A stretch of 64,000 bases of DNA from a virus. Made by a program: the position numbers and the translations under genes. Within the stretch, counting starts at the first letter, position 1. Each line of letters opens with the position of its first letter. Of this stretch, positions 19,143 to 59,671 are shown in pieces. The stretch lies in the IMG/VR virus record IMGVR_UViG_3300035212_003113, positions 248,001-312,000 of that record; one strand, written 5' to 3'. The notes under the pieces were generated by a model. It did not search any database. It saw nothing but the letters and a program-made list of their open reading frames with translations, and was not told where the DNA came from.

Positions 19143-19169
19143 GATATACGGATTTTGCCATTATATGGC

Positions 19170-32812: not shown

Positions 32813-32849
32813 AACAGGCTAGAGCTGAACCAGCACTTTGGGGTCTTTA

Positions 32850-35432: not shown

Positions 35433-36107
35433 ATGGGCTACCCCTATACTGGATCATCTACAACATCGGCTACCAGCACCGGCCTATCTACACAGATAAT
35501 TGTGAAGGTAGACGGCGTCGCTGTCGGCGGTATTCAGACAATGAATATCGACCAACGCCGTGACGTACAGAGAATAACGGAAGTTGGCACAGACGGCACA
35601 ATCGAGCTTGTTCCGCGCAGCGCGACGACCTTTGAGCTAACGATTGATCGCATTTACTTTGATCGCAAGACGATCACAGAGGCTCTAAACCGCCAGTTTA
35701 TCAACATTCAGTCACAGCGTTACCCGTTCGATATCTACGTCTACGACATGCATAATGTGACCGCTGCGAGCGTATCGTCAGCTGCCGGTGGCGAAGCAGA
35801 TACCGGTGCATTTGACGTGGCTCCTAATGCAACCGCAGGTATCATGGTAACTGTGTACGAGAATTGCTGGATTACGAGCAAGCGTGAGTCGTACACGACC
35901 AGCGACTACGTTATTACCCAGAACGTAGCTGTTGCTGCCGAGTTCTGTCACACGTTCATGGACAACGCTAATACAAGCGTTGCAGACGCCCGCGGTCCAG
36001 CTCTTGATGATAGCGAAGAGGGCAAGCTGCGCAAGCTCGAGCGCCTCGTTGACCGCGCTCGTCCGGGCAGCCTTGACGCCCGTGGCGTTGGCGGCGTAGT
36101 ATTCTGA
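35433..36107 (+). CDS. Tail tube protein
   Basis: 224 residues with an AGGAGTTAATA ribosome binding site. The tube-family layout is visible: an N-terminal strand set (IIVKVDGVAVGGIQTMNIDQ), R-D-V-Q-R-I-T-E-V-G-T-D-G-T-I, a central strand-helix (TTFELTIDRIYFDRKTITEA), and a VYENCWITSKRESYTTSDYV strand with INQNVAVAAE-like closure. These are hallmarks of gp19/Hcp-like tubes. A charged C-terminal extension of about 40 residues (SEEGKLRKLERLVDRARPGS) is unusual and may line the lumen or bind the sheath. It lies between sheath and chaperone genes and is followed by a strong terminator. Confidence 0.9.
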   Translation: MGYPYTGSSTTSATSTGLSTQIIVKVDGVAVGGIQTMNIDQRRDVQRITEVGTDGTIELVPRSATTFELTIDRIYFDRKTITEALNRQFINIQSQRYPFDIYVYDMHNVTAASVSSAAGGEADTGAFDVAPNATAGIMVTVYENCWITSKRESYTTSDYVITQNVAVAAEFCHTFMDNANTSVADARGPALDDSEEGKLRKLERLVDRARPGSLDARGVGGVVF

Positions 36108-37169: not shown

Positions 37170-39314
37170 GTGGACGACATTAGCCTTGAAAATATTCAAA
37201 AGCTGCTTTCTCAGTCTGGTAATTCCGATACCAAGGTTGACGATGGCACTTTGAACAAGCTAAAAGATTGGGCCAACAAGGCGTCTAAGCTACTAACGGG
37301 CATGGGCTTTGATTCGTCAGAGATGAAGAATAAGATTACGGATGCCCTTGTCTCAGCGGGCAAAAAAGGCATCAGCGGCATCAATGAGCTTCTGAAGAGT
37401 ACGATTGGTCAGGGCTTTACCGTAGACACTGTTTATAATATGCTCGGCCTTGATACTTTCAAGGCTGATGCAGAAAATACTCTTGGTGCCTTAAAGGGCG
37501 TGCTACAGGATACTGGTATAATTCCAATAGAACTTTCACTTGACTCTGCCGAGGTTCAAGTAGAAAAACTGAAGGAAATGATAGGGAAAGGCGGTCTCAG
37601 CAAGCTGGCCATATCTTTTGGCGCAACCAAGCTCGCTGACCAGTTGCGCACGGTAAGGACACAATACACCGAGCCACTAACCAAGGATCTGGATGATTTA
37701 AGAATTACAGCAGGCGCTATTTTTGCAGTGAGGTCAAATCCATTCGGGGCGATTCGTGAAGATGTGACCGCGAGCACAGAATCTCTTAAGGTTTTTCAGC
37801 AAAAGTTTGCCAGAGAGGCCATTGCCTTGCAGTTCAGTCTAGGTATCGATGCTACTGACGCCAAGCGAGAGCTGCAGAGTGTCTACGCTGGGCTTGATGA
37901 TTCTCTTAGGCAGTTGTCTGGATTCTCTATAAAGAGTGGTGATCAAAACATTGAGGGTGCTGAGGCGGTAGTTGTCGCTGCGAAGGCAATTGGAGTCGAG
38001 GTACAAGAAATCACAGGCGATATAAATGAGATGACTTCTCGCTTTGGGCTTTCTGGAGAGCAGGCCGCCGAGAGAATAATGACTATAGGTAAGGCATCTG
38101 CCGCCTCTGGTCTTAGCATGAGGGCCTTCAAAGATCTTGTTATGGACAGCGCCGGTCAGTTTGGCAGCTTTGGAGATGCCACAGAGGAGTCTGCCGCACT
38201 GCTTGAGCGCTTTACAAAGAACGCCAGCCGTGAGCGCATGAAGGCCGTAACTGATGCATTCAAGGGCGTTGCTAGCGGAATAGCAGGTATGACGGATGAG
38301 ATGAAAGCATTCGTCTCTATGGGTACCGAACTTTCTGGTGGCGGCGGTGCAATTGAGTCCATAGTGCGCTTAGAAGAGGCCATGCAGTCTGGTGACAAAG
38401 ATGCTCTTCAGGGCATTTTTGATGAGACGATGGCCAGGATCGAGGAGCTCACGGGCTCGCCGCTCATGACCATGCAGGAGGCCGTTTCGTCCGGCCAAGA
38501 AAGTACATTTTATCAGCAGGCTGCTCTTGCAAAGCAATTCGGCTTCGCAGGAAACCGGGCGCAAGCGAGCGACGTATTCTCTGCATACCGAACAGGCACA
38601 GTTGACATAGGTGATATCAAAGACCGCCAGATGCCAGCTGATCTTGGTACGCAGGCTAGAGAGAAGATGGCCGGTCAGATGGGTGCCGGCGAGATGGCTG
38701 AGAACTTGCTGCGCGGAGTAGCTGCTCAGCAAAAATTCAATGCTCTCTGGGCAGATACGACAACCTCTTTCATGGCCCAGACACAGGATCTTGGTAAAAA
38801 GTTAGTGGACATAACTGGTCAATTTACTAAAGCTGAGGACATAATCTCTGCATACGTTAGTGATCCTAAGTTAAAGCAGGCTGCGGCTGGCAAAGATGTA
38901 CCCAAGGGCACTACTCGAGAGACTGCAGCCTCTGCCATGGAGGCTCAGGGGACGGCAGGGGTAGGTAGGACTGGAACGATGACAGAGGCGCAGGCCTATG
39001 CAGGTGTCGTAATAGATGCTTCGCGTTTTGAGGCCGGGCTCGTGGCAGGCATTACTCCTGCTGTCAGCGCATCTATAGCTGCTGCAACCGCTGCTATTAC
39101 AGAAACAGTGATAAAGAACGCCTCAAATGCTGCTGCGGGCGGGGCTGCAGGTGTCATCCCCGCTGCTGCCGTAGTTGGTGCTAATCAGCCACCCGTCAAT
39201 ATCCAGGTAGAGGTAACCGTCAAAGGAAGCGATCTAAAAGACATGATCGAAGTCAAGGCTAAGCCAATCGCTGCCCAAGCGGCGCGCTGGTCTGCCGGCA
39301 TGCCCAATCCGTAA
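37170..39314 (+). CDS. Tail tape measure protein
   Basis: 714 residues, GTG start seven bases after the preceding stop. Long helical sequence with Ala/Lys/Glu periodicity (residues 60-620), a central segment rich in Gly/Ala (SGEQAAERIMTIGKASAASG, ERMKAVTDAFKGVASGIAGM) and a hydrophobic Ala-rich stretch near residues 615-665 (AGITPAVSASIAAATAAITE, NAAAGGAAGVIPAAAVVG) resembling the membrane-active part of tape measures. Location after the chaperone pair and before hub genes is canonical. At about 1.5 angstrom per residue it predicts a tube near 105 nm. It is modest in size for a jumbo phage. Confidence 0.82.
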   Translation: MDDISLENIQKLLSQSGNSDTKVDDGTLNKLKDWANKASKLLTGMGFDSSEMKNKITDALVSAGKKGISGINELLKSTIGQGFTVDTVYNMLGLDTFKADAENTLGALKGVLQDTGIIPIELSLDSAEVQVEKLKEMIGKGGLSKLAISFGATKLADQLRTVRTQYTEPLTKDLDDLRITAGAIFAVRSNPFGAIREDVTASTESLKVFQQKFAREAIALQFSLGIDATDAKRELQSVYAGLDDSLRQLSGFSIKSGDQNIEGAEAVVVAAKAIGVEVQEITGDINEMTSRFGLSGEQAAERIMTIGKASAASGLSMRAFKDLVMDSAGQFGSFGDATEESAALLERFTKNASRERMKAVTDAFKGVASGIAGMTDEMKAFVSMGTELSGGGGAIESIVRLEEAMQSGDKDALQGIFDETMARIEELTGSPLMTMQEAVSSGQESTFYQQAALAKQFGFAGNRAQASDVFSAYRTGTVDIGDIKDRQMPADLGTQAREKMAGQMGAGEMAENLLRGVAAQQKFNALWADTTTSFMAQTQDLGKKLVDITGQFTKAEDIISAYVSDPKLKQAAAGKDVPKGTTRETAASAMEAQGTAGVGRTGTMTEAQAYAGVVIDASRFEAGLVAGITPAVSASIAAATAAITETVIKNASNAAAGGAAGVIPAAAVVGANQPPVNIQVEVTVKGSDLKDMIEVKAKPIAAQAARWSAGMPNP

Positions 39315-39324
39315 AAACTAACAC

Positions 39325-40191
39325 ATGGTAGACAATAAAAGATTCCTAATAAACAAGACCGGTCTCACTGCAGCCTATCGCACGCAGCGTGACGTAATCA
39401 TATGGCGTACGCCTGGTCTTGGTTTTATAGAGATGTACATAAATCCGCAACAGGTACGCATCTCGCAGCGCAAGGTCTCCACGTCTACTCGCACTAAAGC
39501 AGGTTTTGTCTACCAGTATGCTGGTGAAGATTTGACAACTATCGCTATAGATGGCACAACCGGCAGCGCTGGTATAGAAGGCATAAATCTTCTTGAGAAA
39601 GTGTATCGTGCCGAGCAGATAAGATTTGAGCAGATTGCTTCTACTACAGAGACACAGCAAGCCCTTGGTAATGCAGGTTCTTCAATAGGCTCCGCCTTTA
39701 CGAGTGCATTTGGCTCACCTAATTCAAATTCGCCAGTAGATATTTTTGGCTCTGTCTTAGAGTTCGGTAGCAATCTTATTGGAGCCGATCCTTTTGAGCA
39801 GCCGTATCCAACTCTAGCAACTCTTGCATCAGCAGTAGAGATGAACTACCAGGGCGTTACATATCGTGGTTATTTTACTGAGTTTTCTTATACGGAAAGC
39901 GCTCAGAGTCCGGGTCTATTTGACTACAACATATCTTTCACATCTTACGCAAAGAGTGGCGAGCGTCTTAACTTTATGCCATGGCACAGGCGCCCTGATG
40001 GTCAATCCAACAGCGACAGACTGGATAATTTCAGTATCTCTGATGTGACTGATCCAAATGCCCCTCCAGAAACAGATGCTAATTCTGGTGCTCCTCCTGT
40101 CGATACTTCTGGAATCCAGAAGGCTCTTGCTGGCAGAAAGTTAATCGGCATTGGCGCGTTTACCGGAGAGGACTTGACCGATAATGAATAG
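39325..40191 (+). CDS. Baseplate hub / tube-initiator-like protein
   Basis: 288 residues. The first 100 residues contain WRTPGLGFIEMYINPQQVRI and TRTKAGFVYQYAGEDLTTIA followed by IDGTTGSAG, a pattern of beta strands seen in proteins that cap the tube at the baseplate (gp48/gp54- or Afp7/XkdP-like). Residues 110-160 are flexible and Ser/Gly-rich. Residues 165-225 form another strand set (VEMNYQGVTYRGYFTEFSYT, FDYNISFTSYA). Lies between tape measure and the large hub gene. The exact family is uncertain; a role in starting tube polymerisation is inferred from position and strand pattern. Confidence 0.6.
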   Translation: MVDNKRFLINKTGLTAAYRTQRDVIIWRTPGLGFIEMYINPQQVRISQRKVSTSTRTKAGFVYQYAGEDLTTIAIDGTTGSAGIEGINLLEKVYRAEQIRFEQIASTTETQQALGNAGSSIGSAFTSAFGSPNSNSPVDIFGSVLEFGSNLIGADPFEQPYPTLATLASAVEMNYQGVTYRGYFTEFSYTESAQSPGLFDYNISFTSYAKSGERLNFMPWHRRPDGQSNSDRLDNFSISDVTDPNAPPETDANSGAPPVDTSGIQKALAGRKLIGIGAFTGEDLTDNE

Positions 40192-40221: not shown

Positions 40222-43200
40222 ATGGCCATTTTAACAGGTACTGCAAGAAATAGATTCGCTGGGTTTTCAGAATCAAATGCTATGGGTGCATCTGATGGCA
40301 CGAAGGGCATTACCGATGGCGTTCTCGGCTTTTTTGAGTCACTCGCACAGCATGCCGATCAGTTTCAGCCATCCTTTACAGAAGACGGCTTCTATGAAAG
40401 CCCAGCTATAGTCGCGCCCGGTGTGCGCCCAACATCAGAGAAAATCCCTTCTCAGCGCCGCCATATTACTCAGAGGCCCAAGGCCACTGTTTTTATCAAG
40501 AAGAAGCAATTTGGTTCTCTTGCTAGTAATAATGAACTGCGCATGCTTGATGAGGATGAGAAGCTATACTTGCGCTGCGTAAAAGCACTATTCCGTCGCA
40601 AGTGCGAAGAGATGGCGTTTCACGAGAGCCTTGTCAACATCTCTTCGATATATGAAACCAGCGGATTTCTTCTTACGGATGATCTGCTCGATAGCTCGCT
40701 TGATTATGTGATCAATGTTGTTGGCTCGCTATCCGGAGCGAGTGATATAATCTCTTCTATTGGCTCAAGCTCTTTTCTTGGCTCCCAGATGGGATTTGAA
40801 GATCGCTTTCTTTCATTCATGCAAGGCCTTTATAGAGCAAAGCAGCGCAGTCAGCGCAGTCGTGCGTCCGCATTTACGCGCTGGGTAGATGACCCAGCAG
40901 AGCCGGATTATGCAGGACTGGGGCCTGGCACCGGCACGATTGAGCTAAACATGGTAAGCTCACTCAGCTCTTCGTGCGGCCTTAATGACGGCAGCTCATC
41001 CCTAGAGATAGAGGATCCGTATCAACTAATGCTTATTACGGCCGCAGATATCGAGAATGCACTGTATATTGCAACTTCGCGTTCATATCAGATATCCAGA
41101 TTCTATGATGCGACTGCCTCTTTCCGACTCGCGATTGCACAGAATGCAGACCGCCGTCTCAATTTCCTGCGCCAGAAGCGCGGCGAGAAAGAGATATCCT
41201 TTGAGTTTGTTGAGAATGACACCGGAGAGATGCAGCCAACTGCGACTCTTGGATATGTAGATGCGGCCAAACTAAAGTATTACCAGTGGGTCGGCGGCAT
41301 CTTGAGTGCTGATGACAAGGAGGAAGCAACAGGGGTCGGTCTTAACGCTGAAGATATAGTTCTTGTCAATCAGATTGTCTCTAATCTCCGGCAGTATCGT
41401 GATGCGACCACGATCCCTCCTGCTCAGCCAGGCCTAAATGCATCTGAATCCGATCTTCGCAGGCTTTCTAAACTACGCGATAAGATGCGCAGAGACTTCC
41501 TGGGTCAGCACGTTATACAGCCAATGGATCAGATAACGCTATTCGCGAATAGTAATACATACGACGTCACGCCGGTGGGGGGCATAGTAGATGTATTGAG
41601 TGGTGCCTCTGCACGCTTAACCGATACGCTTGATCCGCAACTCATTGAGCAGGAGCGGGCCGACATTCTTGGCTCCAATAGCGGCACTGATCCGCTCAGT
41701 TTTGCCAATGATCTTGGTCTCGCCGCGCTCTATAATTCTATCCGCAAAAAGAATATATTTAGAGACGACGGCGCCTGCATATTCTCTGGCTTAGCAGAGC
41801 AGATCTCTGATAGGTATGACTCATCTGGCGGTACGTTCAAGGTTAGCGTATCTTGTCAATCGAACCTGCAATACCTACAGGTAAGCCGATACACATTCAA
41901 GCCTGACCTCAATAATACACTAGGAGCTGTTAATGATCCGCTTACGCCTTTTAATTTAGACGCGGCGGTCGACCCTGCCAGCGGTCTGATTATAGCAGAT
42001 AAGTTTGAGCTAAGTGACAAAAACAAAGAACGCCTTGATTTCCTGCGCATTGCCTCTGGGCCTCTTGTCTCTAAGAAGCTAAGAGGCATAGACGATATAC
42101 TCTCTGATAAGCGCAATGGCTTGGCCATAATCTCTCACACGCCTGGACTTGCATACAAGTGGAAAGAAGGCATTATTTCTGTTGCTCTTGATGCTCCAGG
42201 CGGTGGCGGTAATCCTGGTGGTATCTCGTCTCTTAGGCAGCCGTTTGCAAAGCTTGATGCGGCAAACATTGCCAGTATACTCATTACTGGGCAGCCATAT
42301 GATTACGCTACCTTTCTAGAGGGCGTCTCAAAGGTCAGTGGTACATCATCGAACCCCACCAATCTTGCTAGAGATTTTTTCAATTATCTGTTCGAGTATA
42401 CCGACAGGGTGAAGAAATACTATGGCAATTTTATACCAGCCAAGGACCGCACTCTAGACAAAGACTCTGTGATGGCATATTACCAAGCCAAGAATGCTCT
42501 AACAGCTCTAAACACAAGAGCAAACCGACTTATAACAAAGTTAAATGAGCTGAGCCGGCAACAGAAGGTCGGACAGGGTACTTCTACTGATCAGCAGAAA
42601 CTTCAGGACGAGATAATCCGCATCTCATCAGAGATATCTGAGCTTCAGACCAAGGCTCTGCCTAGCGGCGTACAGCTTTCTTTAGAGGGAAATAATGCTT
42701 TCCTGTCTGTAGATGCTATCGACAGGGTTCAGGCAGATCGGGAGATACTGTACAAGACCAAGCGCAAACCCGAAGACGTACGATTCAACAAGGACAAGAA
42801 TTACTTTATTGTGTCCTCTGACTACGACACCGAGTTTATCATACAGGCATTTGCTGCGAGCCTCGGCAATTTCTCTATGTACGATGCAGAATACAGCTCT
42901 CCGCTTGAAACGATTCGGGCAGCAGTCAGCGCTCTGCAGCTCGAGTTCTTTGCTGATCCAGATGGAAACCTTGTATTGCGCCCGCCGCGCTATAATCGTA
43001 CACCACTTAGTCTGATGCTGGACATGATCCGGAGAATGCCTCCTGGTCAGGGCTCCATGTTGCCAGCATTCGTTAGAAATGTCCTGGCATCGCGGACCAA
43101 TAGCCTAAAAGATGCGATCTTCAAGAACGAGCTTAACATTGCCAAAGATCTTTATTCAATTGGTCTTTCAGAAAGCGAAGTCTCTGGCAATGAGGGCAGC

Positions 43201-44961
43201 GTTTTTCCGTTTATAACTCGCTCTTCTGGCAATGCTTCTGGCGCAGTAAGCTCGCCATTTCAGCTGAATGAGACTGCAGTAATTTCCGAGATGGAGCGTG
43301 TCTTCTCTCCTGGTACAGGCGGCAGCATTACATCTAGCTTTGTATTCGGTCCTGCATCAAGAGTGAAGACGATAGACCGAGTGGTTGCAAATAAGGAGAA
43401 TGAGAATGCAGACGTGCAGCAGCGCCTCACAGACGTCATTATCGCAATTCGCAGCTTAGCCGGAGAGTCGGTGAGCGATGTGCTTGTTAGCAAGGCAGAA
43501 ACAGAGGCAAAGGCAGCTCTCGCAAAGTTAAAGCTAGATAATATCCGCGGTCTTGTGGCTGCTAAACTTACCTCGATATCCGGCCATTTAAATGACCGGA
43601 GAACGCTACTCCGGTCTCTTTATGACACCATAAAGAGAGAGAGTGCTGGCGCTGTATCACCGCTTGAACAAGTAGGTGCCTCTGCGCTCGCAGCCATGGG
43701 AACTGACTTCCAGTCTGCTATTGGTATCTTCGGAAGCATGTCCGGCGCATCTTTGCCGCCAGTATTAGAGAATCTAGTTGAAAATGATTTAACAAATACA
43801 GATGGACCAGGAAGTGCAAAACGCTTTATCATAAATGATGCAGTGGTTATATCTGGTAGCTTTTCACATCGGCCTCCTGAGTACAATCAAGTATCAGTAA
43901 CAGGCGCCTTGGACTTTATATCTCCTGAAGCCAGCGGTACAATCGGTGAGCTACCTGCGCTCACTGCAGTTGCTACAGATTTCGACTCGTGGCGACAGTA
44001 CGGCTTTAGAGACAACTCTCCAATCCGTCGTCCAGATATGACTTCTGCGGAGACTCAGTGCGCGCCTTATGCTTCTCTAATGCTTGCAACTCAGCGCAAG
44101 AAGATTCACTCTGGCCGCATCACAGTCATTGGTAACGAGTATTATCGTCCAGGCGATAACGTATATCTTTCGTATCGCAATATGATTTATTATGTTACGA
44201 ACGTCAGCCACAATTTAAGCCTAAATGATGGTAGCTTTACTACTGAGCTTGATCTGGCTTATGGCAGACCTCCTGGCGAAATCATTCCGACGCCTCTTGA
44301 TATAATCGGTGCTGCGCCGAGCGGTGCTTCTTTCTTAACCAAAAAGTATCGTATGGCAAATTCTCAGGACCGCGCATCTACTCAGACTGCAAAAGGTCCG
44401 ACAATACTTAATCTAGGAACTTTTCACATTTCTCCGGCACTTAGACAAAGAGTTGGCACAACACGTCCTACAGAGCTGATGAGCACAATAGTTAAAGCCA
44501 ATGGATCAGAGCTAGATAATGTAGTGCTAAAGGCTCGAGCCCGCGTACTAGCATCTCCTACTCAGGCAGGAAAAAGTGCAAAGATAGAAGTAAGGGGATA
44601 TTATATCTCGGCAGAAGGTGATGTTCAAAAATCTGCCGTTGATACATGTTCCGGAATGATCTCCAGACTTATTGCCGAAAGGTTATCAGGTGGCGGAGCA
44701 CCTCCTGTTTCAAAAACAACAGACGATGGTTCACGATCCACGGGTCAAGCTCAGGCAACCAGTAGCCCCGGCGCGAACAGCCCGATTGCAGTCAGTCATA
44801 GGGTTATAGATATATCTGCTGATTTTAGCGATGAAGAGCGGTTGCAGATGCCATTCCCATCCGAAGATGCATGGCTTTCTGCTTCGCCAGTAAAGGTATC
44901 AGAGACCAAGACGATAGATTTGCCTGTAAATGCATTTGACATAGTCTTTGTTATAACCTAA
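40222..44961 (+). CDS. Large baseplate hub protein
   Basis: 1579 residues, far longer than typical hub subunits (300-400). Residues about 1284-1355 carry the hub signature seen in gp27/gpD-like proteins: IHSGRITVIGNEYYRPGDNV, then YVTNVSHNLSLNDGSFTTEL and a Y-G-R-P-P-G-E turn. The N-terminal 1200 residues include helical parts (LSRQQKVGQGTSTDQQKLQD) and strand regions, and probably hold fused wedge-binding or tube-binding domains. The C-terminal 200 residues are Ser/Gly-rich with an end strand. Its stop is followed one base later by the spike gene, so hub and spike are made together, as expected for partners. Confidence 0.78.
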   Translation: MAILTGTARNRFAGFSESNAMGASDGTKGITDGVLGFFESLAQHADQFQPSFTEDGFYESPAIVAPGVRPTSEKIPSQRRHITQRPKATVFIKKKQFGSLASNNELRMLDEDEKLYLRCVKALFRRKCEEMAFHESLVNISSIYETSGFLLTDDLLDSSLDYVINVVGSLSGASDIISSIGSSSFLGSQMGFEDRFLSFMQGLYRAKQRSQRSRASAFTRWVDDPAEPDYAGLGPGTGTIELNMVSSLSSSCGLNDGSSSLEIEDPYQLMLITAADIENALYIATSRSYQISRFYDATASFRLAIAQNADRRLNFLRQKRGEKEISFEFVENDTGEMQPTATLGYVDAAKLKYYQWVGGILSADDKEEATGVGLNAEDIVLVNQIVSNLRQYRDATTIPPAQPGLNASESDLRRLSKLRDKMRRDFLGQHVIQPMDQITLFANSNTYDVTPVGGIVDVLSGASARLTDTLDPQLIEQERADILGSNSGTDPLSFANDLGLAALYNSIRKKNIFRDDGACIFSGLAEQISDRYDSSGGTFKVSVSCQSNLQYLQVSRYTFKPDLNNTLGAVNDPLTPFNLDAAVDPASGLIIADKFELSDKNKERLDFLRIASGPLVSKKLRGIDDILSDKRNGLAIISHTPGLAYKWKEGIISVALDAPGGGGNPGGISSLRQPFAKLDAANIASILITGQPYDYATFLEGVSKVSGTSSNPTNLARDFFNYLFEYTDRVKKYYGNFIPAKDRTLDKDSVMAYYQAKNALTALNTRANRLITKLNELSRQQKVGQGTSTDQQKLQDEIIRISSEISELQTKALPSGVQLSLEGNNAFLSVDAIDRVQADREILYKTKRKPEDVRFNKDKNYFIVSSDYDTEFIIQAFAASLGNFSMYDAEYSSPLETIRAAVSALQLEFFADPDGNLVLRPPRYNRTPLSLMLDMIRRMPPGQGSMLPAFVRNVLASRTNSLKDAIFKNELNIAKDLYSIGLSESEVSGNEGSVFPFITRSSGNASGAVSSPFQLNETAVISEMERVFSPGTGGSITSSFVFGPASRVKTIDRVVANKENENADVQQRLTDVIIAIRSLAGESVSDVLVSKAETEAKAALAKLKLDNIRGLVAAKLTSISGHLNDRRTLLRSLYDTIKRESAGAVSPLEQVGASALAAMGTDFQSAIGIFGSMSGASLPPVLENLVENDLTNTDGPGSAKRFIINDAVVISGSFSHRPPEYNQVSVTGALDFISPEASGTIGELPALTAVATDFDSWRQYGFRDNSPIRRPDMTSAETQCAPYASLMLATQRKKIHSGRITVIGNEYYRPGDNVYLSYRNMIYYVTNVSHNLSLNDGSFTTELDLAYGRPPGEIIPTPLDIIGAAPSGASFLTKKYRMANSQDRASTQTAKGPTILNLGTFHISPALRQRVGTTRPTELMSTIVKANGSELDNVVLKARARVLASPTQAGKSAKIEVRGYYISAEGDVQKSAVDTCSGMISRLIAERLSGGGAPPVSKTTDDGSRSTGQAQATSSPGANSPIAVSHRVIDISADFSDEERLQMPFPSEDAWLSASPVKVSETKTIDLPVNAFDIVFVIT

Positions 44962-44962
44962 T

Positions 44963-47092
44963 ATGCCAAATCATCTCGACATTATTCCGAATATACTGCG
45001 CATAGCCACGATAGAAGAGGTGGCTGTTTCGCCTGGTGCGGCATTACCCTCCGTATGTACGATTAAATTTGATGATGCAGAAAGAACGGCAGAGGCATTC
45101 TTGCCTCATCCGGCAGGAGTTGGAGACCAGGGTCTTTTTATAGTGCCGAAAAAAGGCACCAGAGTTCTGGTTGGTCGTGGCGACAGCAACCGATTTTTCA
45201 TAGTATCATATTACACCGGTCCTTTTCTGAATTCTATTTCAGGTCAGTCACGCCTTGGATCGCTGTCTGTCAAGTCGTCGCCACCACCGCTATCTTCAAC
45301 TCCCGGCGAAGTGATAATAAACGGCAGTCGCGGGGCTTACTCGAAGTACGGAGTAGACGGAGAGATACTAAGCAAATTTGGTGATACTGGCTCGATATCA
45401 CTGAGCCCGAGTGCCACCATAGGGAAATATGCCAAGGGGGCGTACACAAGTCTTTCATCCGGATATCATGTATCCGGAGAAGTGCGGCGCGAGAGCGAGC
45501 CAACCGAATTCTGGAAGACCAAGGAGCGACTAGCTGGCACCGACTTTGATGGCGCGTTGCGCCCTATTGGTCGCGACCCTACGCTTCCTATTTCTTCTTA
45601 TACAAGCGGTCCAAATATTCACCGCAATCCTCCATTTGTAGAGCAGCGAAGTGTTGTGTACGAGTATGCCCGTGATTACTTAGTCAATGACGCAGCGATA
45701 GAAAAAAATCTTTATAAAGAGGCAAATCCAAGCCTTGGCATTAGTGACCTAAAGTTAGAGCGCCAAGGTAGCAGGACCGATGCATTTGGGATCGGGCCTT
45801 TACAATACAATGTCCTATCTGAAACCCTGTTGGGTACAGCGGTTGACGTTTACAAAAATATACTCGACCTAAATCGCAATCCAATTGCCCCTGAGCCAGG
45901 CGCATCTACTCCTGATCAACAGATATCTGCACAGTATGATGCTCTACGCCGCAGCATAAAATTTCATTTCGAGCTGAACTCGAGAAAAGCTACGGACAGC
46001 ATCACACTGGACTCAGACAATCCTGTATTTAGCGGTGGGCCGACTGGCTACCTTGCTGATCACTCTCGATGGAGTATCGATGTTGATGCCGAAGGTCAGA
46101 CGAAGATAAACATTCCGGCGTCTTCGTCAACTGGCAACATACCGGTTCACTCTAGATATGTGTCATCGTCTTTTTTGGCAACTGTTTCAGAGTCTGACTC
46201 TGACTTATCTAAGACTCATTACATGGTACGCAATCCTGGTAGCAGGGATTCCCTAAGCAGTAATAACTCTGAAGAGCTACGCAAAGATATTGTCCATTAT
46301 AACTATTCGAGCACATCTACGGAGAGCGGCGTCGAGATAGACGACAAGAATAGTCCAAAGTCGCAGAATACTCGCGCATTCCGATGGACAATGCCGCATC
46401 ATGACCCGGCCCTCTGGGATATTCTTAATCTAAAAACGCGTATTAGTGCTCTACCACACTGGTATCCAGATGGATCAGGCGTAAGCTCTGAGCAAAGCTA
46501 TCTTGGGCTGCTGGGCCGGCCAGTAATCCCAACCGGAGCTCTTACCAACTCTGCATCTGGCTATGTGTCATCCAATGGCATATATGTAAGCCCTAATGCA
46601 GGTGGCCGCAGTGTTAGCCTTAATCTCGACGGCAGTCTGGAAATGGCACTTGGTGCTGATCAGGCTAGCGGCAAATCTGCTATTATTGATGCGGCGGGAT
46701 CGCTAATCGCGCGCGTCGGCAAGGATTCTTCTTCGAATTCAATCGTATTGGCTGCAGATGGCGACACTACGCTTGTAGTTGGTGCAAGCAGCAAGAGCGG
46801 AGATGCCATAAGGATTCCAGGCGGGAACCTAAAGATATTTGTTCAGAATGCTGAAGGTGGTACCGCTGCCATAGAGATAATTGACGGAAACGTGCACATC
46901 AAGAGTGCTCCTAATAAGAATATCGTATTCGAGAGCTCTAGCAATATAATCTTAAGTGCAGGCCATAATGTGCTTATCAATGGCGAGCGCATCGGCTTCT
47001 ACGGCAAATATGAGAGCGATGGCAGCAAGGTCTATGGCGGCAAGGCAGGCGTAGGCGAGCGCCAGATGGTTCGTAATGGTCAGGTGATATAA
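44963..47092 (+). CDS. Baseplate central spike protein
   Basis: 709 residues. The N-terminal 110 residues look like the OB fold of gpV/gp5 spikes (VCTIKFDDAERTAEAFLPHP, then GLFIVPKKGTRVLVGRGDSN and RFFIVSYYTGPF). A long middle is unassigned. Residues 525-700 are regular short strands (VSLNLDGSLEMALGADQASG, IDAAGSLIARVGKDSSSNS, IVLAADGDTTLVVGASSKSG, NVHIKSAPNKNIVFESSSN), the pattern of a triple-stranded beta-helix that pierces the outer membrane. No lysozyme-type insertion or PAAR His cluster is apparent. The stop shares a base with the next ATG (TAATG). Confidence 0.8.
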   Translation: MPNHLDIIPNILRIATIEEVAVSPGAALPSVCTIKFDDAERTAEAFLPHPAGVGDQGLFIVPKKGTRVLVGRGDSNRFFIVSYYTGPFLNSISGQSRLGSLSVKSSPPPLSSTPGEVIINGSRGAYSKYGVDGEILSKFGDTGSISLSPSATIGKYAKGAYTSLSSGYHVSGEVRRESEPTEFWKTKERLAGTDFDGALRPIGRDPTLPISSYTSGPNIHRNPPFVEQRSVVYEYARDYLVNDAAIEKNLYKEANPSLGISDLKLERQGSRTDAFGIGPLQYNVLSETLLGTAVDVYKNILDLNRNPIAPEPGASTPDQQISAQYDALRRSIKFHFELNSRKATDSITLDSDNPVFSGGPTGYLADHSRWSIDVDAEGQTKINIPASSSTGNIPVHSRYVSSSFLATVSESDSDLSKTHYMVRNPGSRDSLSSNNSEELRKDIVHYNYSSTSTESGVEIDDKNSPKSQNTRAFRWTMPHHDPALWDILNLKTRISALPHWYPDGSGVSSEQSYLGLLGRPVIPTGALTNSASGYVSSNGIYVSPNAGGRSVSLNLDGSLEMALGADQASGKSAIIDAAGSLIARVGKDSSSNSIVLAADGDTTLVVGASSKSGDAIRIPGGNLKIFVQNAEGGTAAIEIIDGNVHIKSAPNKNIVFESSSNIILSAGHNVLINGERIGFYGKYESDGSKVYGGKAGVGERQMVRNGQVI

Positions 47093-49218
47093 TGGCTGTT
47101 AATCCACTAGATGTAGCGCAGTGCCTGACGTCCGATGACCCGGTCAATCCAAGCGAGACCATGGCTCTGCTCATAAGCACACTGGGGCCTCTTCTGCCAG
47201 GTGCTGGTATACCGTATAATCCTGACATCCCTCAGATCGATGGCGTTATAGGCTCTAGTGCAAATTACGTCCTAAAGCTTCCTGGCGGAATAACGACTCC
47301 AAACATATCTGTTCCTGGAGCGACCAATATACTTGAGTTCTTGCAACCGCTACTAAATGTCATAAGCACTGCCCTTATTGTTCTTGGTCCAATAAAGGTT
47401 TTGATCGATATAATTGTTGCGATAATAAATGTCTTCTGTGCTTTCCCAAATCCAGCTAAGATGGCTGCGGCTATTATTCAGCTCATCACTGCGATGGCAT
47501 CTCTTGCCACGCTATTTCCAATAGCCGCTGCACTTGTACTACTCATAGAGCTGCTTAAGACCATCATAATGATACTTTCAGCAATACTGCTGATAATTGT
47601 ACCAAAGATTGAGCTTATAATACGAAATGCGGAAACGATACAGACGGCTTTCAGTGGCGATGAGACAGCCGTCAAAGGAGCTTCAGACAAGATCTGCGGT
47701 CTTGTGCAGGATGCATTAAATGACCTAGGCATCCTTTCACCTATAAATTCTTTGCTTTCGCTCATAGCTGCATTTGCTGGACTAGCTTCTCCTGCGCTTT
47801 GTTCGTCCGCATGCTGTGATGATTGTCCAAAAATAGTCAGAAATCCCCCAGAAGGGCGCCTCAAGTACCTTGATACTCAGGATGATGGTGCGACATTCCG
47901 CGTGGAGTTAATAGATGCGACTTATTCTGAGAACCTAAACAGTAACGCGCAGCCATTTGCAGAAGTCGGAACATCAATTCCTTTCTTCAGGGCTATTGAG
48001 CAGGCAGTTCCAATCCTTGCGCTAAACTATGCAGATACTTCGCCAAGTGAGCCGGCAGGCTCTTTTGTGGAGGATATTGGTCGCAAGCAGTATATCGATG
48101 CCTTTAGGGTCATGATTAATAAACGACTTGGTCAAGCAAACGTGTCTACTGTTACAGGAAGCTATGGCGCAGTAATTGCGTACAGCAGTCCACACGGATT
48201 TATGGCTGGCCAAGAGGTATACTTTCTTGGGTCATCATTTTCAGGCTTCGGTGTGGTAGAGTCTTTGATAAGCCCAACTACGATTATCGCAAAAATGCAA
48301 AATCTGGCCACTACTACGGTTACTGTACCAGTGGGAAACCTTGTTACTCATGGGATATATAGCGTAGCTTCGATGATTCGTGGTGGAATAGAGAATAATT
48401 TTAATCCAATTATGGCACTGAAACTTATTCCTGGCTCAAGTCGGCTGTCATCTGCAGAGACGAATTATATAATGGTTGTTGACGAAAATTCTGTAACCGA
48501 TCTCACCTCCGGCTGTAGAATTGACGTAGAAAGCGCCGTTAATGATTATAATTCTACAATAGGAAATGTACCTGGTAACGATGGAGTTCCTGCCTCGCCG
48601 TACACCGGTTCTTTGAGCGAGCTCCTTGGCGTTGATGTTGCTTCACTTACTCTGGATAACGTTGATGCGCTAAAGGCTGCAATTCAGGCTCGCCTGATTA
48701 CTCCTCTGCTTCCCCCTGGTGACATTATATCTCTTGTCAGAGCAGACTTAGATAAAATGGGCAAGCTGCTCGAAAGAGCGATGTGCGTTTCTGTTAGCGC
48801 AACTAACAGTATCTTCACCTCTTCTGCACAGGCTCTTGATATTTCATCTGAGCAGAAGATCCTGCTAACATTTCAGCCTCGCAGCATTGGAGTAAATGGT
48901 GGCAAGCCGATTATGGCCGGTATGCCGTCTACGATAGATGTGCGCGGCATCTTTACCGCTACGCATGGTACGCTTTCGGACGTACAGTTTGATTCCGAAA
49001 CAGGCACCTATACTGCAGAGTTAGTATCCACGTCTGCAGGTACCGCAGAAGTTCGCGCGTACTTTCTTACGGCAGATGTCTGCTCAAGTCCTGCTCAGGA
49101 CGCACCGCGTCTTGGCTTTCCTCCCAAGGTCTTGGAAGTAAGATTCATCGAGGGCAATCTGCGCCCACGGCGCCAGGGCAGACAGTACCTACCATCTGCT
49201 GGCGGCAGGAGACGGTGA
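47092..49218 (+). CDS. Baseplate protein with a strongly hydrophobic N-terminal region
   Basis: 708 residues. Residues about 80-185 are four or so long hydrophobic stretches (ILEFLQPLLNVISTALIVLG, VLIDIIVAIINVFCAF, ALVLLIELLKTIIMILSAIL, LLIIVPKIELII), unusual for a virion protein made in the cytoplasm. A Cys cluster follows (SSACCDDCPK, about 240-250). A C-terminal Ig-like domain (residues 595-665; PSTIDVRGIFTATHGTLSDV) and a basic tail RPRRQGRQYLPSAGGRRR end it. It is placed between spike and wedge genes. It could be a membrane-inserting tip component or a packed hydrophobic core protein. Family not recognised. Confidence 0.65.
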   Translation: MAVNPLDVAQCLTSDDPVNPSETMALLISTLGPLLPGAGIPYNPDIPQIDGVIGSSANYVLKLPGGITTPNISVPGATNILEFLQPLLNVISTALIVLGPIKVLIDIIVAIINVFCAFPNPAKMAAAIIQLITAMASLATLFPIAAALVLLIELLKTIIMILSAILLIIVPKIELIIRNAETIQTAFSGDETAVKGASDKICGLVQDALNDLGILSPINSLLSLIAAFAGLASPALCSSACCDDCPKIVRNPPEGRLKYLDTQDDGATFRVELIDATYSENLNSNAQPFAEVGTSIPFFRAIEQAVPILALNYADTSPSEPAGSFVEDIGRKQYIDAFRVMINKRLGQANVSTVTGSYGAVIAYSSPHGFMAGQEVYFLGSSFSGFGVVESLISPTTIIAKMQNLATTTVTVPVGNLVTHGIYSVASMIRGGIENNFNPIMALKLIPGSSRLSSAETNYIMVVDENSVTDLTSGCRIDVESAVNDYNSTIGNVPGNDGVPASPYTGSLSELLGVDVASLTLDNVDALKAAIQARLITPLLPPGDIISLVRADLDKMGKLLERAMCVSVSATNSIFTSSAQALDISSEQKILLTFQPRSIGVNGGKPIMAGMPSTIDVRGIFTATHGTLSDVQFDSETGTYTAELVSTSAGTAEVRAYFLTADVCSSPAQDAPRLGFPPKVLEVRFIEGNLRPRRQGRQYLPSAGGRRR

Positions 49219-50765
49219 TGACAAATAAGACCGATACTGCGTCGAACTCTGCGTTCCTAAGTGCCGAAGTTGACGCTTCGAAGATATTTGAATCTCTTGT
49301 GCAGATATCAAATGGACTGCGCTCTTCTGATCCTGTAACAAAAGGCAGGATTCCTCGTGCAGATGAAAAGCTGGACTCAAAAGATGGCGAGTCGCTTTTT
49401 AACGCTTTCCTGCGCGCAATTGGCATGCCAGCTGTTCGCGATGACGAGTCGCTAGGCAAGGATATAAATAATGAGCAGAAGAGCCAGGATGGCACGCTCA
49501 ATTACTTTCAGTATGCAGATATAGGACTGAATGCAGATGATGTAGCAAAGGTTATTCAACGCGAGCAGGCGCTGGCTGCGAACAGGCCCATCGATTACCA
49601 GGCCACTCCTGATAAGGCTAATGTCTTAAGCGGACTTCAATTTATGCTATCCCCCCCTGCTCCTGATGCCGGAGTCAAAGGAGAAGGAGGTCGTCGATCT
49701 ATTTTTCCGCTTGTTGCATGTGGTGACGTCACGGTATATCCTCTTTCGAACAGAACAAAGCCAATGTTTGGTAATTCTGGCGACCCTAATGGTTATGTGC
49801 AACAGCGCTGTTTCCTTGAATTCATATTGATCACAAAGTTCGCTGCAAAGCAAACTGAAATTAGCTCTGAGTTGCGAGAAGCAATAAAAGTAAAACTACT
49901 TAGTATCGGCGTAGCCGAAGGCTCAAATGCTCCTGATCCTCGTGCCAATGAAAAACAGGCCATAATTGGAAATCTGGGCAATGAAGAGGTATTTTCTCTT
50001 CGAGTTATTCAAAAGCTATTTCAGGCACTGGAGGCCTCTGCAATTGATTATGCAGAGTCTAAAAAACTTGTTCGTAGCTATATGCAAGATGTGACCTATG
50101 TGCCAGTGTTCAATGGTCGTTCGCCATTTGTGCGCCAGGGTAATTTTGAAATATCATATGAAGAAATAATCAAATTTCTTGATGAAAATGACCCAAATAA
50201 GAAAATTGAGCTAGGTCTGGACAAGAAACCACGTCTTGATGCCGCGATAGATAGTTTAGATCTTGAAAAAACGCAGTCAGAGCAGTTTTTTGACATCTTT
50301 ATTCCGGCGGCCAACAAACCAGAGGATGATATAGATTTTCTTCTCGGCGCCGGCAGCGGTGAGGCGTTTGGAACTGGAACTTTCGAAGACATAGTGGTCT
50401 CAATCTGCACGCTGGACAGAAATAGGGTGGACGAAGAGATCAAATCCAAAAAGTCCGAGATGACTCGTATTCGAGCTGAGCTAGAGTTGCTGCGCAGCAA
50501 GCTGGATATATATTCAGGATATACCTACGGTCTCTCAATATTTGATTTTTTAGCAATAATACTCTCTTTGTATATATTGCCGCAATCAACTATAAGCGAG
50601 TTGGTGAATGCTGAAGGCAGGAATAGGTTTTTCGAAACAAGGGGCAGCTTTCCTTCAACAGGACTTTCTGCATCAGCTGAGCGCAAAAAATTCGAAGAAA
50701 CCGTAACCCAAGTCCTCAATATAGCTAGGGCAGCATTCGATAAGGCTGAGAAGGGTTCCAAGTAA
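49218..50765 (+). CDS. Baseplate-associated protein of unknown function
   Basis: 515 residues from ATG 49218 (TGATG overlap with the previous stop), chosen over GTG 49215 because the AGGAG ribosome site has normal spacing to the ATG. Mostly helical and charged, with two helices near residues 210-280 (SSELREAIKVKLLSIGVAEG). Near residues 430-450 a hydrophobic stretch follows a coiled coil (MTRIRAELELLRSKLDIYSG, then FDFLAIILSLYIL). Unrecognised; position before the gp25-like wedge gene suggests a baseplate role. Confidence 0.65.
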   Translation: MTNKTDTASNSAFLSAEVDASKIFESLVQISNGLRSSDPVTKGRIPRADEKLDSKDGESLFNAFLRAIGMPAVRDDESLGKDINNEQKSQDGTLNYFQYADIGLNADDVAKVIQREQALAANRPIDYQATPDKANVLSGLQFMLSPPAPDAGVKGEGGRRSIFPLVACGDVTVYPLSNRTKPMFGNSGDPNGYVQQRCFLEFILITKFAAKQTEISSELREAIKVKLLSIGVAEGSNAPDPRANEKQAIIGNLGNEEVFSLRVIQKLFQALEASAIDYAESKKLVRSYMQDVTYVPVFNGRSPFVRQGNFEISYEEIIKFLDENDPNKKIELGLDKKPRLDAAIDSLDLEKTQSEQFFDIFIPAANKPEDDIDFLLGAGSGEAFGTGTFEDIVVSICTLDRNRVDEEIKSKKSEMTRIRAELELLRSKLDIYSGYTYGLSIFDFLAIILSLYILPQSTISELVNAEGRNRFFETRGSFPSTGLSASAERKKFEETVTQVLNIARAAFDKAEKGSK

Positions 50766-50767
50766 AA

Positions 50768-51196
50768 ATGAGCTTTGACTTCAAACTTGCAAATGGTACT
50801 TTTTCGCTAGGCCCCGATGGAGACATCCAGCGCGCATATGGCCAGGAAAAGCTATCGCAGGACGTGGTCAAGATAATTGCCACTGCCGTAGGGACAAATC
50901 TGTTACATAAGTGGTATGGCTCATCAATACCGGATAATCTTGTAGGATCTGGCCTAAATCGGCAGTTCCTGGAGGCCGAGATCATCCGTAGTATCGGCTA
51001 TAGCCTGCAGAATCTCAAGGCCCTGCAGGAGCAGCAGGAGCGGGCTGGCCAAATATTGCTTCCAAGTGAGGCGATCAGGTCTGTCGAGGATATAAGTATC
51101 CTGCCAACTAATGATCCCCGAGCAATAGGAATTGTAATAGCAATTCGTACGCGATCAGGCAAAATTGCCCAAGAGACGCTCGCACTCCGGATTTAA
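50768..51196 (+). CDS. Baseplate wedge protein, gp25/GPW-like
   Basis: 142 residues. The gp25 family pattern is plain: FDFKLANGTFSLGPDGDI at the start, then Q-D-V-V-K-I-I-A-T-A-V-G-T-N-L with KWYGSSIPDNLVGS, a helix (FLEAEIIRSIGYSLQNLKAL) and a closing strand pair (GIVIAIRTRSGKIAQETLAL). gp25 joins the wedges to the hub and starts sheath assembly. Starts three bases after the previous stop and is followed by the gp6-like gene, the usual pair. Confidence 0.88.
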   Translation: MSFDFKLANGTFSLGPDGDIQRAYGQEKLSQDVVKIIATAVGTNLLHKWYGSSIPDNLVGSGLNRQFLEAEIIRSIGYSLQNLKALQEQQERAGQILLPSEAIRSVEDISILPTNDPRAIGIVIAIRTRSGKIAQETLALRI

Positions 51197-51205
51197 AGGT
51201 GAATC

Positions 51206-54200
51206 GTGGCCAGAATTAAGTCACTAGAAGAGATTGTGCTGTCAATGCTTGACTTCATCCGACTGGCACAGCCGGATGCAAACCTGAATCCCGGCAGCGT
51301 AATTCGCGATACCATGGTTGATATGCCTGCGACTGCCATTTCCCAGCTCTATGATGAGTTGCGAGCAGCATCAGGCTTTCAGGCCATACTTGCAGCGACC
51401 GGTTCTGAGCTCGACAAGATTGCAAGAAACTACAGCATCTCCCGCAACACTGGCAGCCCAGCCCGTGGCGTTGCTGTCCTTACTACAAACAATTTAGAAG
51501 CCAATATTTCGATACCAAATGGCACTTTTTTTATCTCGAGAAATGGCCAGAAGTTCCGCACCCTAAGTGACACCCTTATGGATGCCGCTAGGCCGAATAT
51601 CTATCGCTCTAATGCGGTCCGGCTGGCCAATGACCTGCAAATGATTGGCATTCTCGACCAGTTCGCCGTAGAGGTGAGCGTACAGGCCATTTCGCCAGGG
51701 GTTGCTGGTAGAATAAGCAAGTACCAGCTACTAAGCCATGGTATCCCCGGCATATCGAATATAACAAACATCTCTTCTTTCACCGGCGGCAGCAGTATAG
51801 AATCAGATGATCAGTTCCGAAACAGAATCTTGTCTATATTCCGCGGAGCAAATACCGGTACCGAGACCGCTTACCTTGGCGCCGTAAATGCCGACAATCG
51901 GGTTATCTCTAGCGCAGTAATAGGCCCAGGAAATCCACTCATGACTCGTGACGGGACCGTTACTGTCGAAGACGAGTACGGCAATATTACGATAATCAGC
52001 AGCGGTACCGGTGGCAAGGCAGATATACTTGTCCAGGGATCTGAGATCCTGCGTAATACAGAATCATTTATCTTCAATGACCGCTCTGGTACAGAGAACC
52101 CATCTGATCCGATAAACGATCAGGTCCTAGGTCTGCGTGGAGAGGACTCTGATTTAGACATGGCTCAGCGCCGTCGCAATGCCGTAGAATCTGGATCATT
52201 TCCGTATCAGCCAGTTGATTCAGTAGTAACGCTATCTGGCAGCCTTTCTGGAGCCAACTTTGTTCAGGCGTACATAGACGAGGCAGGAGTCGAGCGCGGC
52301 AACTTTAAACTAATCAAGGACGATGGCGCATTTCGTGGCAGTCCATTCGGCTTTGACAGGCTTCACTTTATATCTAACGAGATCGATCTTCAGAGTGAGC
52401 AGGTATCAAAGCCGCAGCTCGGCAGCAAAGATCCTCTTAACTTCACCGACGTAACTCACATCGACTCCATCTTCCAAAATATTTCAGTAGTACGAGAAGT
52501 TGCCACTACCGACCCAGTAAATCGTCAGTTTGTGACTGTGCGCCATACGCCTGTGCTTGCTGTTGACCGAGTAACTAACGCAACCACTGGTGAGCGCTAC
52601 CGCATAATCTCTCAGAACCCTGATGGCACTGGTACTCTCAATACAACCGGACGCATACAGATCGCCGGAGCAACCTTGCCACGCAGCACTGATATTATCG
52701 AAGTCAGTTATACTTGGCAGGCGCAGTTTGATAAATATGTCGATTACGATAATCTCATGGATGCTAATCGATCACGAACGGCAATAGATAGCGTTGACTG
52801 GGGTTATTCGGCACGCGTAGAGCTAGAGGAGACCGCCACTGTTTATTCTATAGCAGACGGTTATCATGTGCTGACCACGTATCCGATTAATCGTGTGACG
52901 AATGTCTACACCTATACTCGCGAGACAGTAAACCGCTCTGGCGGCAAGCTAATCCTTGCTGAGTCTATACTGGACATTCTATCTGTCCTGGATGCAGACG
53001 GCAGGGAAGTGTTCTTTACTGCTGCTGGGAATGGCAGTTTCTCCGGTTCTTCTATAACTCTCCCCACTGACTCGCTCCTACTAGAGGGAGAGCCGGCCAC
53101 GGTTACCTATAATACGACTGATGTCTTCAGCCCAGACAACGAGGATCTTGGTAGCTTTACCGGAAACAAGATACTGCTGTCAAGCGATATCGGCATCTCT
53201 ACTCCTGTTCTAGTAGACTATGTTGCTGCTCACCAGGAGTTGCTCCCGAATACTGCCCTATCCAGCCTGCCGGCATTTGGAGTAGAAAACGAATGGTCGG
53301 CTAACGGAATTATCTCTGGCGAACAGCCAACGCTATTTTCCTGGTCGGCCGGTCAGCGCACCGCTGTACAGGTGTTGGCTCCTACGCATCTGCGCATGCT
53401 AGTTAGCAATACCTCTTCTTCTGGCCGTCTGCTCATTCGCGGTCTTGCTTGGAAACGCATAGAGTCCACTTTTGTGAGCACCAACGAGGGACTGACACTA
53501 GATCTGTCCCAGGTTATCAGGCAGCAGCTCGGCACTCTGCCCACGGGTGCCTTCCTGGCCTCGGTCGACTCTCTTGAAAGCGTTGTTGTAGAGAATGGCG
53601 CAGCAACATCGGTAAATTTTCAGTATGATCTACAGAACTACGAGCTGCAGACCGCCATCTGGGATCGAGGTGCGATAGAGAATACATCTCTGCTGCCTAC
53701 CGCATTCTCCCTGCCAAGTACTTCTGCAAATGCAGCTGTCGAGCCCATAAGCGGCACTGGCCTGCGAGTATCTTTCTCTATAATTTACCCGATCATAGAG
53801 AGACTGACTGTTTCTGCCGCTGGCGAGCAGATAACCGAGAACAAGTTCGTGTTTGTCGAGGAGATCCGGATAGACTCTGGCTTTAGAAATCTCTCAAATG
53901 TTGTTGCTGGCAATATTACTATATCGGCACTTAATCAGCCATCAACAAATTCACAGTATTTTGTTAACTACTCGTACAAAGCTCCTAAAGAGGGCGAGCG
54001 CATAACCGTTGTCTACAACTATGATTCGCTAATGGCCGAGCTCACTGCAGCTGTCGAGACGGTACGTCCAATTGGCGGAGACATACTGGTTCGCAAGAAG
54101 GATTCGGTTGATCTTTATACGGAAGTAGAGGTCACTCCGCTACCAACATTCACTGGATCGACCTCAACCCTGCAGAGCACCGTCTCGCAGCGCATTACTG

Positions 54201-54403
54201 ACTTTATAAATGGACAGACAGCTGGCTCGACAATAGATGCTAGCGATATAATTAACGCAGTCTACGTAATAGCAGGTGTAGATCGCGTAATCATAAATAA
54301 ATTTAATACTGAGGATGTTGTTGCTATAAAGAAGAGCATAGTTGGCCGCGATGATAAATTCTTTGTCGCTCGCTCTGTTGTAGTAAATATCGTGAATAGG
54401 TGA
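51206..54403 (+). CDS. Baseplate wedge protein, gp6 / baseplate J-like
   Basis: 1065 residues, GTG start preceded by AAAGGTGAA. The N-terminus (SLEEIVLSMLDFIRLAQPDA, then NLNPGSVIRDTMVDMPATAI and TGSELDKIARNYSISRNTGS) matches the baseplate-J/gp6 start, followed by VLTTNNLEANISIPNGTFFI. The C-terminus (TEVEVTPLPTFTGSTSTLQS and INAVYVIAGVDRVIINKFN) matches the end of the same family. Between them about 600 residues of strand-rich sequence are inserted, including the segment with TYTRETVNRSGGKLILAESI. gp6 forms the inner ring that triggers sheath contraction. Follows the gp25-like gene closely. Confidence 0.85.
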   Translation: MARIKSLEEIVLSMLDFIRLAQPDANLNPGSVIRDTMVDMPATAISQLYDELRAASGFQAILAATGSELDKIARNYSISRNTGSPARGVAVLTTNNLEANISIPNGTFFISRNGQKFRTLSDTLMDAARPNIYRSNAVRLANDLQMIGILDQFAVEVSVQAISPGVAGRISKYQLLSHGIPGISNITNISSFTGGSSIESDDQFRNRILSIFRGANTGTETAYLGAVNADNRVISSAVIGPGNPLMTRDGTVTVEDEYGNITIISSGTGGKADILVQGSEILRNTESFIFNDRSGTENPSDPINDQVLGLRGEDSDLDMAQRRRNAVESGSFPYQPVDSVVTLSGSLSGANFVQAYIDEAGVERGNFKLIKDDGAFRGSPFGFDRLHFISNEIDLQSEQVSKPQLGSKDPLNFTDVTHIDSIFQNISVVREVATTDPVNRQFVTVRHTPVLAVDRVTNATTGERYRIISQNPDGTGTLNTTGRIQIAGATLPRSTDIIEVSYTWQAQFDKYVDYDNLMDANRSRTAIDSVDWGYSARVELEETATVYSIADGYHVLTTYPINRVTNVYTYTRETVNRSGGKLILAESILDILSVLDADGREVFFTAAGNGSFSGSSITLPTDSLLLEGEPATVTYNTTDVFSPDNEDLGSFTGNKILLSSDIGISTPVLVDYVAAHQELLPNTALSSLPAFGVENEWSANGIISGEQPTLFSWSAGQRTAVQVLAPTHLRMLVSNTSSSGRLLIRGLAWKRIESTFVSTNEGLTLDLSQVIRQQLGTLPTGAFLASVDSLESVVVENGAATSVNFQYDLQNYELQTAIWDRGAIENTSLLPTAFSLPSTSANAAVEPISGTGLRVSFSIIYPIIERLTVSAAGEQITENKFVFVEEIRIDSGFRNLSNVVAGNITISALNQPSTNSQYFVNYSYKAPKEGERITVVYNYDSLMAELTAAVETVRPIGGDILVRKKDSVDLYTEVEVTPLPTFTGSTSTLQSTVSQRITDFINGQTAGSTIDASDIINAVYVIAGVDRVIINKFNTEDVVAIKKSIVGRDDKFFVARSVVVNIVNR

Positions 54404-59026: not shown

Positions 59027-59671
59027 ATGGCAAATAAGCGCATTAGTGAGCTAGATCTATCGGGTGGGCTTGCATCTGACGACTTGCTTGTAGTGGTTGA
59101 TACCGGTACTGGCGAGACTCAAAAGGCGAGCCTTTCGCAAGCTCTGGACTATATTGCAGATAATCTTTCTACGGGCGATGTTACTGGTACGGGTAATGCG
59201 GGCAATGTGGCATTATGGACTGGTGCGTCCACTTTGTCATACGATGCTAATTTATACTGGGATGGCGCGAATGATCGACTAGGCATGGGTACGGCGATGC
59301 CTGCTACAGCACTTGACGTCGTTGGTACAATCACGGCATCGGCTGGAGTTGTATCTCCAATTCAGACTAATGCACAGTCAGCTTCTTACGTACTGGCTCT
59401 ATCCGATGCATCTAAAATTGTTGAAGTTGCTGTGTCCTCGCCATCTACTGCTACGATAACAGTTCCTCTAGACAGCAGCGTTGCCTTTCCAATCGGTACA
59501 CAAATAATTGTATCACAAACTGGTACAGGTGCTGTTGACATTGCTGGTGAAGTAGGCGTTACAATTGATTATCGCAGTGGACTGGGGCTAGATCTTAATG
59601 GTCAGTGGGCTGCCGCTACACTGATTAAGCGCGCAGCTGACACCTGGATGCTGTTTGGTGATCTAGTATGA
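59027..59671 (+). CDS. Short tail fibre-like protein
   Basis: 214 residues, weak GAGGG ribosome site. The N-terminus NKRISELDLSGGLASDDLLV is a typical phage-fibre start. LGMGTAMPATALDVVGTI resembles fibre A. Residues 115-214 are a tip-like domain (KIVEVAVSSPSTATITVPLD, GTGAVDIAGEVGVTIDYRSG) found at fibre ends. Likely a trimeric fibre tip or short fibre. Ends with an ATGA overlap into the repeat protein. Confidence 0.75.
   Translation: MANKRISELDLSGGLASDDLLVVVDTGTGETQKASLSQALDYIADNLSTGDVTGTGNAGNVALWTGASTLSYDANLYWDGANDRLGMGTAMPATALDVVGTITASAGVVSPIQTNAQSASYVLALSDASKIVEVAVSSPSTATITVPLDSSVAFPIGTQIIVSQTGTGAVDIAGEVGVTIDYRSGLGLDLNGQWAAATLIKRAADTWMLFGDLV

Follow-up and report, generated by a model that had tools for sequence, protein, structure and literature searches.

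Proposed membrane-active proteins of phage tails and spikes

In phage tails, it is usually the tape-measure protein that is credited with opening a path for the DNA across the inner membrane. Tape measures with transmembrane segments (P2 gpT, T4 gp29, and the TP901-1 TMP) carry hydrophobic helices that have been proposed to provide the inner-membrane path. In the type VI secretion system (T6SS), effectors of the prePAAR/PAAR kind are encoded by genes adjacent to the spike and have a hydrophobic helical domain whose proposed site of action is the inner membrane of the target. T4 gp7, encoded by a large baseplate gene, includes a stretch that is predicted to be membrane-like and is annotated as such in the T4 record. 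Gene X, the subject of this work, shares attributes with each of these systems. It lies in the tail module of an uncultivated ~372-kb phage, in a 64,000-nucleotide stretch covering bases 248,001–312,000 of the 371,675-base virus record IMGVR_UViG_3300035212_003113 (hereafter, the window).

The route that the DNA of contractile-tailed phages takes through the inner membrane is unsettled. For T4, a contribution of the tape measure to an inner-membrane conduit is regarded as likely (PMC9022992), and a 2025 paper on the structure of Mu states that evidence is lacking for penetration of the inner membrane by the distal tail of myophages, the T4 tape measure being the one case where this is postulated (PMC11915804). 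The hydrophobic domain of X is a concrete candidate for this step, found as a conserved, single-copy gene in more than 70 giant phages. Membrane activity of a tail protein has been proposed before, but not for gene X, whose family appears to be undescribed in Pfam, PHROGs, phage records, and the open-access literature searched.

X also differs from each of the described systems. Unlike the tape measures, it has a gene of its own that follows the spike; the slot after the chaperone-like gene is occupied by another protein (37170–39314, 714 amino acids [aa]), and the tape-measure-position proteins of these phages have no such hydrophobic segment. It has no PAAR or toxin family match, its domain is highly conserved, and it sits in a phage tail operon, in contrast to the T6SS effectors. 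T4 gp7 has one weak segment and is a wedge protein beside gp6, whereas X has a whole hydrophobic domain and is found between the spike and gp25.

Gene X and its hydrophobic helical domain

Gene X and its parts are located as follows, with hydropathy and the insertion score dG explained below.

47092–49218, + strand: gene X, 708 aa with an ATG start, encoding a hydrophobic helical domain, a cysteine (Cys) cluster, and a C-terminal immunoglobulin (Ig)-like domain
47329–47787, + strand: hydrophobic helical domain, residues 80–232 (AlphaFold2 pLDDT ~78–90 over 101–230; 100-residue hydropathy peak; homolog domain modelled alone)
47533–47601, + strand: most membrane-like segment, residues 148–170 (dG −1.52; start of a 43-residue helix)
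47800–47826, + strand: Cys cluster C237-x3-C241-C242-x2-C245-P246 (Cys conserved at 100/99/88/100% in 74 homologs)
48793–49149, + strand: C-terminal Ig-like domain, residues 568–686 (structure and profile matches)

The frame is intact. Its start codon and the stop codon of the spike share one base (TAATG), and its own end contains the start of the following 516-aa gene (GTGATGA); because of these overlaps at both ends, gene X is probably cotranslated with its neighbors.

X is rich in Ala, Ile, and Leu and is hydrophobic overall. An earlier sequence-only reading of this DNA had described residues 80–185 as strongly hydrophobic with four helix-length stretches. Four segments do exceed 1.6 on the Kyte-Doolittle scale over 19 residues, at 94–112 (2.62), 131–149 (2.11), 152–170 (2.61), and 214–232 (1.82); the range given was slightly short, with the fourth segment lying beyond it. 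Composition shuffles reproduce the single 19-residue peaks (379/5000); for the window copy, neither the hydropathy of single segments nor dG exceeds such shuffles, and both were dropped as proof. What shuffling does not reproduce is the clustering of the hydrophobic segments, i.e., a best 100-residue hydropathy mean of 1.83 at residues 78–177 that none of 20,000 shuffles reached. Of the 32 window open reading frames (ORFs) examined, no other encodes a protein with several hydrophobic segments.

An AlphaFold2 model of full-length X built with 74 sequences is of moderate quality (pLDDT 64.5, pTM 0.56). The helical domain within it is well predicted, with helices at 80–116, 121–141, 144–186, 191–213, and 216–232. 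Modelled alone, the domain of one homolog (L010) has helices of 41, 20, 46, and 41 residues, and its long hairpin reaches a pLDDT of 97. A Foldseek search with the helical domain found no counterpart in the PDB (best E 1.5). Matches obtained with the full model were rejected as counterparts of the helical domain, as they stem from the Ig-like domain, which matches InvE (5n40, E = 4.9e-5) and also invasin and InvD (E <0.001). In a profile comparison the Ig-like domain matches 4e9l (E = 5e-4). Pfam Invasin_D3 scores 1.7e-3 on the window copy (19.3 bits, below the cut-off of 33) and E 1.1e-5 on the best family member. Residues 568–686 have the Invasin D3/Big_1 fold, a common decoration or adhesion module that is uninformative on the helical domain.

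The unusual Cys cluster that the sequence-only reading placed next to the helices is real and is conserved in homologs. Across the 74 homologs there is no variation at C116, C237, C245, or C475, and C241 is retained in 99%. Disulfides suggested by co-varying Cys pairs (110/134, 202/565, and 117/123) were rejected; each pair shows 1–3 independent tree events, which is too few.

A conserved family in uncultivated giant phages

The hydrophobic domain of X has no Pfam or PHROG family, three different family members gave no matches when searched against 50,697 phage records, and a single-protein search of viral contigs with X found nothing. The family was instead reached through its neighbors. The gp6-like Baseplate_J gene (gp6J) led to one ortholog, alignments of gp6J and gp25 led to nine more, and the resulting 11-member alignment led to many IMG/VR contigs. 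The first ortholog shows 71% identity and an identical gene order. The profile search identified 77 distinct homologs, on IMG/VR contigs of up to 480,838 bases, and the 20 records tested each carry one copy of X. Clustering of the family at 50% identity yields 30 groups, and the lowest pairwise identity is 16%. One further homolog is found on a 383-kb contig (L172, JAIXLO010000160.1) binned in a Chitinophagales metagenome-assembled genome, which is a weak hint at the host or a binning error.

The setting of the gene is conserved along with it, with an unchanged gene order in all loci where it is readable. A spike-type gene is found ~2–5 kb upstream of X in every non-truncated family locus. Where the contig reaches downstream, gp25 follows at ~3.3–4.6 kb and gp6J at ~2.3–5.9 kb, with few exceptions. 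A gene of ~430–640 aa starts at most 250 bases after X in 72 of 73 loci, the remaining locus (L011) having a longer frame; in 32 of the 73, this partner carries a borderline hydrophobic segment 60–80 residues before its C terminus. In cultured phages with a similar gp6J (phage G and Phrappuccino), none of the proteins encoded between spike and gp25 is hydrophobic.

The hydrophobic core (residues 93–166) is the best-conserved region of the protein, with a median pairwise identity of 0.56–0.58 versus 0.23–0.38 elsewhere. This runs counter to what would be expected for a mere anchor. Columns 144–162 are nearly charge-free in the 74 homologs, except for position 156, which is charged in 22%.

Membrane propensity was compared using dG, an apparent-insertion-energy score based on published scale parameters; absolute values are approximate, and controls were scored by identical code. 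The median of the best dG per homolog is −4.81 kcal/mol, and 71 of 74 homologs have a segment below 0; with a window value of −1.52, these helices score as transmembrane-type. Three homologs taken through a shuffle test (L010, L110, and L101) were reached by 0/200 shuffles, while the window copy (−0.83 at length 21), L012, and L089 fell within them. Among the controls, the P2 holin scored −0.84, the P2 tape measure −1.52, T4 gp29 0.05, and T4 gp7 −0.2; no segment with dG <1 was found in any other T4, Mu, or P2 tail protein tested. In 20 relatives, the 18-kb stretches upstream of X, which cover sheath, tube, tape-measure position, initiator, hub, and spike, contain no ORF of at least 200 aa with dG <1. 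Because none of these other ORFs gave such a value, X is the only strong membrane-type protein found in the sheath-to-spike interval of the 20 relatives.

If the four hydrophobic stretches span the membrane, the N- and C-terminal parts of X would lie on the same side and the 167–209 hairpin on the opposite one. The hairpin side is the more positive, following the positive-inside pattern, in 93% of family members.

Proposed insertion in the host membrane and other explanations

These observations make X a good candidate, judged from its sequence, for the piece of the tail that engages the host inner membrane. We infer its location in the virion, trigger, insertion, topology, and role in DNA entry as follows. 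In the particle of this contractile-tailed jumbo phage, X would be part of the baseplate, sitting close to the tail tip and the spike. Sheath contraction would drive the tube through the outer layers, and helices 93–166 plus 214–232 would then enter the cytoplasmic membrane, anchoring or opening a path for the DNA. The amphipathic hairpin (~167–209) would come to lie on the cytoplasmic side, with the Cys cluster and the C-terminal Ig-like domain left outside with the tail. About an even chance is given to this reading, in which the domain of a protein near the tail tip enters the cytoplasmic membrane of the host as DNA is delivered. The wider proposal, that a widespread uncultivated lineage of contractile-tailed jumbo phages opens the inner membrane for the DNA by the conserved helical domain of this dedicated spike-adjacent protein and not by its tape measure, is possible but more tentative.

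Insertion in the inner membrane had been raised by the sequence-only reading, and it is partly supported here. The near charge-free helix, the conservation of the core, the status of X as the sole membrane segment of the tail in 20 relatives, and the positive-inside pattern all strengthen it, the helix and the charge pattern being features of most members. Several points weigh against it. The window copy is less membrane-like than most of the family: its dG of −1.52 is within shuffles (its best value was equalled by 38 of 200), E153 and K156 fall inside the main helix, and the charge difference across the proposed topology is 0. Conserved polar positions (99, 106, and 113) interrupt helix 1, and R130 lies in helix 2, which is amphipathic, so one or two helices at most resemble classical membrane spans. 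The charge asymmetry lends the topology modest support, since the segments were picked after the sequence was seen. A hydrophobic stretch is also present in T4 gp7, a wedge protein, and AlphaFold2 cannot distinguish an inserted from a buried bundle for these helices. For the tape measure of TP901-1, mutants led hydrophobic regions to be judged less likely to take part in membrane insertion (PMC5099701). Overall, the sequences make a strong case for a membrane-like domain in the main clade, and a moderate one in the clade to which the window copy belongs.

The main rival is a buried structural core, where X would oligomerize around the spike or hub with its helices packed together or on neighbors and without lipid contact. 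AlphaFold2 folds the helices as a confident bundle without a membrane, helix 1 has a conserved polar stripe and helix 2 is amphipathic, high sequence conservation suits tight packing, and the gp7 stretch at −0.2 is an example in a wedge protein. However, most members have a segment of 20-plus residues with a dG of approximately −5 (0/200 shuffles), a more membrane-like value than that of any structural control tested, and this explanation is considered rather unlikely. By analogy with T6SS effectors, whose transmembrane domains have been proposed as grease on the VgrG tip (PMC7773334), X might instead cap the blunt end of the spike, replacing PAAR or the HxH apex, with its Cys cluster binding metal and its helices coating the tip across membranes. 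The gene is directly 3′ of the spike, a four-Cys cluster lies beside the helices, none of the 21 spikes (the window and L178–L197) has an apical HxH near its C terminus, and no PAAR family match was found in 13 records, where the 70-position model could miss a divergent PAAR. This cap seems improbable given that X has neither a PAAR-like fold nor a prePAAR-type family match, and that T6SS transmembrane domains are poorly conserved in sequence (PMC7773334) whereas that of X is its best-conserved part.

A role in assembly can also be envisioned, with the domain either bound by a chaperone, perhaps the 516-aa partner, or tethering baseplate assembly to the membrane of the infected cell. Nearly all loci have the partner gene immediately downstream of X, and chaperone recruitment was suggested for the hydrophobic regions of the TP901-1 tape measure (PMC5099701). 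Unlike small chaperones, the partner is large and has a borderline hydrophobic segment of its own, with no family match. An assembly role is considered the least likely of the four explanations.

The surrounding tail module

The genes around X form a tail module.

32838–35411, + strand: tail sheath (PHROG tail sheath, 2.8e-5)
35433–36107, + strand: tube-like protein (PHROG virion structural, 6e-6)
37170–39314, + strand: tape-measure-position protein, 714 aa (follows a chaperone-like gene; identity proposed from position and size)
39325–40191, + strand: tail tube initiator (Pfam PF23980, 4.7e-7)
40222–44961, + strand: hub-position protein, 1579 aa (weak PHROG baseplate hub match, 0.039; position; orthologs in relatives)
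44963–47092, + strand: spike (gp5/VgrG-like), no HxH apex (position and beta-repeat C terminus; ortholog upstream in all family loci)
49215–50765, + strand: partner gene, 516 aa, directly 3′ of X (borderline hydrophobic segment at 436–455)
50768–51196, + strand: gp25-like sheath initiator (PHROG 2.2e-7; Pfam 2.3e-6, just below the Pfam cut-off)
51206–54403, + strand: gp6-like baseplate wedge, Baseplate_J (Pfam 2e-15, PHROG 8.6e-43)

The chaperone-like gene sits between the tube-like gene and the gene at 37170–39314, whose product has no segment with dG <1. The spike, hub, and tape measure in the window have no significant family match and are named by gene order, and the 516-aa partner has no Pfam or PHROG family match. 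As the sequence-only reading had it, gene X is flanked by spike and wedge genes, with the putative spike upstream and the 516-aa gene, the gp25-like gene, and gp6/Baseplate_J downstream. Its further description of X as a baseplate protein agrees with the conserved gene position; that label depends on gene order only, and X is best called a putative baseplate component.

Other features of these tail regions were also observed. In two relatives (L187 and L197), two tandem tube-like genes are found between the sheath and the tape-measure position. In the window, a 136-aa frame at 59668–60078 consists of ~4 imperfect repeats of ~34 residues (TPLESFEYAG-WPG...). Within the fibre gene cluster, a 337-aa protein (19155–20168) weakly matches an Rz-spanin PHROG (0.0047) and has a single membrane segment (dG −1.44) at its N terminus. 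The adjacent fibre-like genes at 20176–24840 (1554 aa) and 24837–31007 (2056 aa) have similar N termini, suggesting a tandem duplication.

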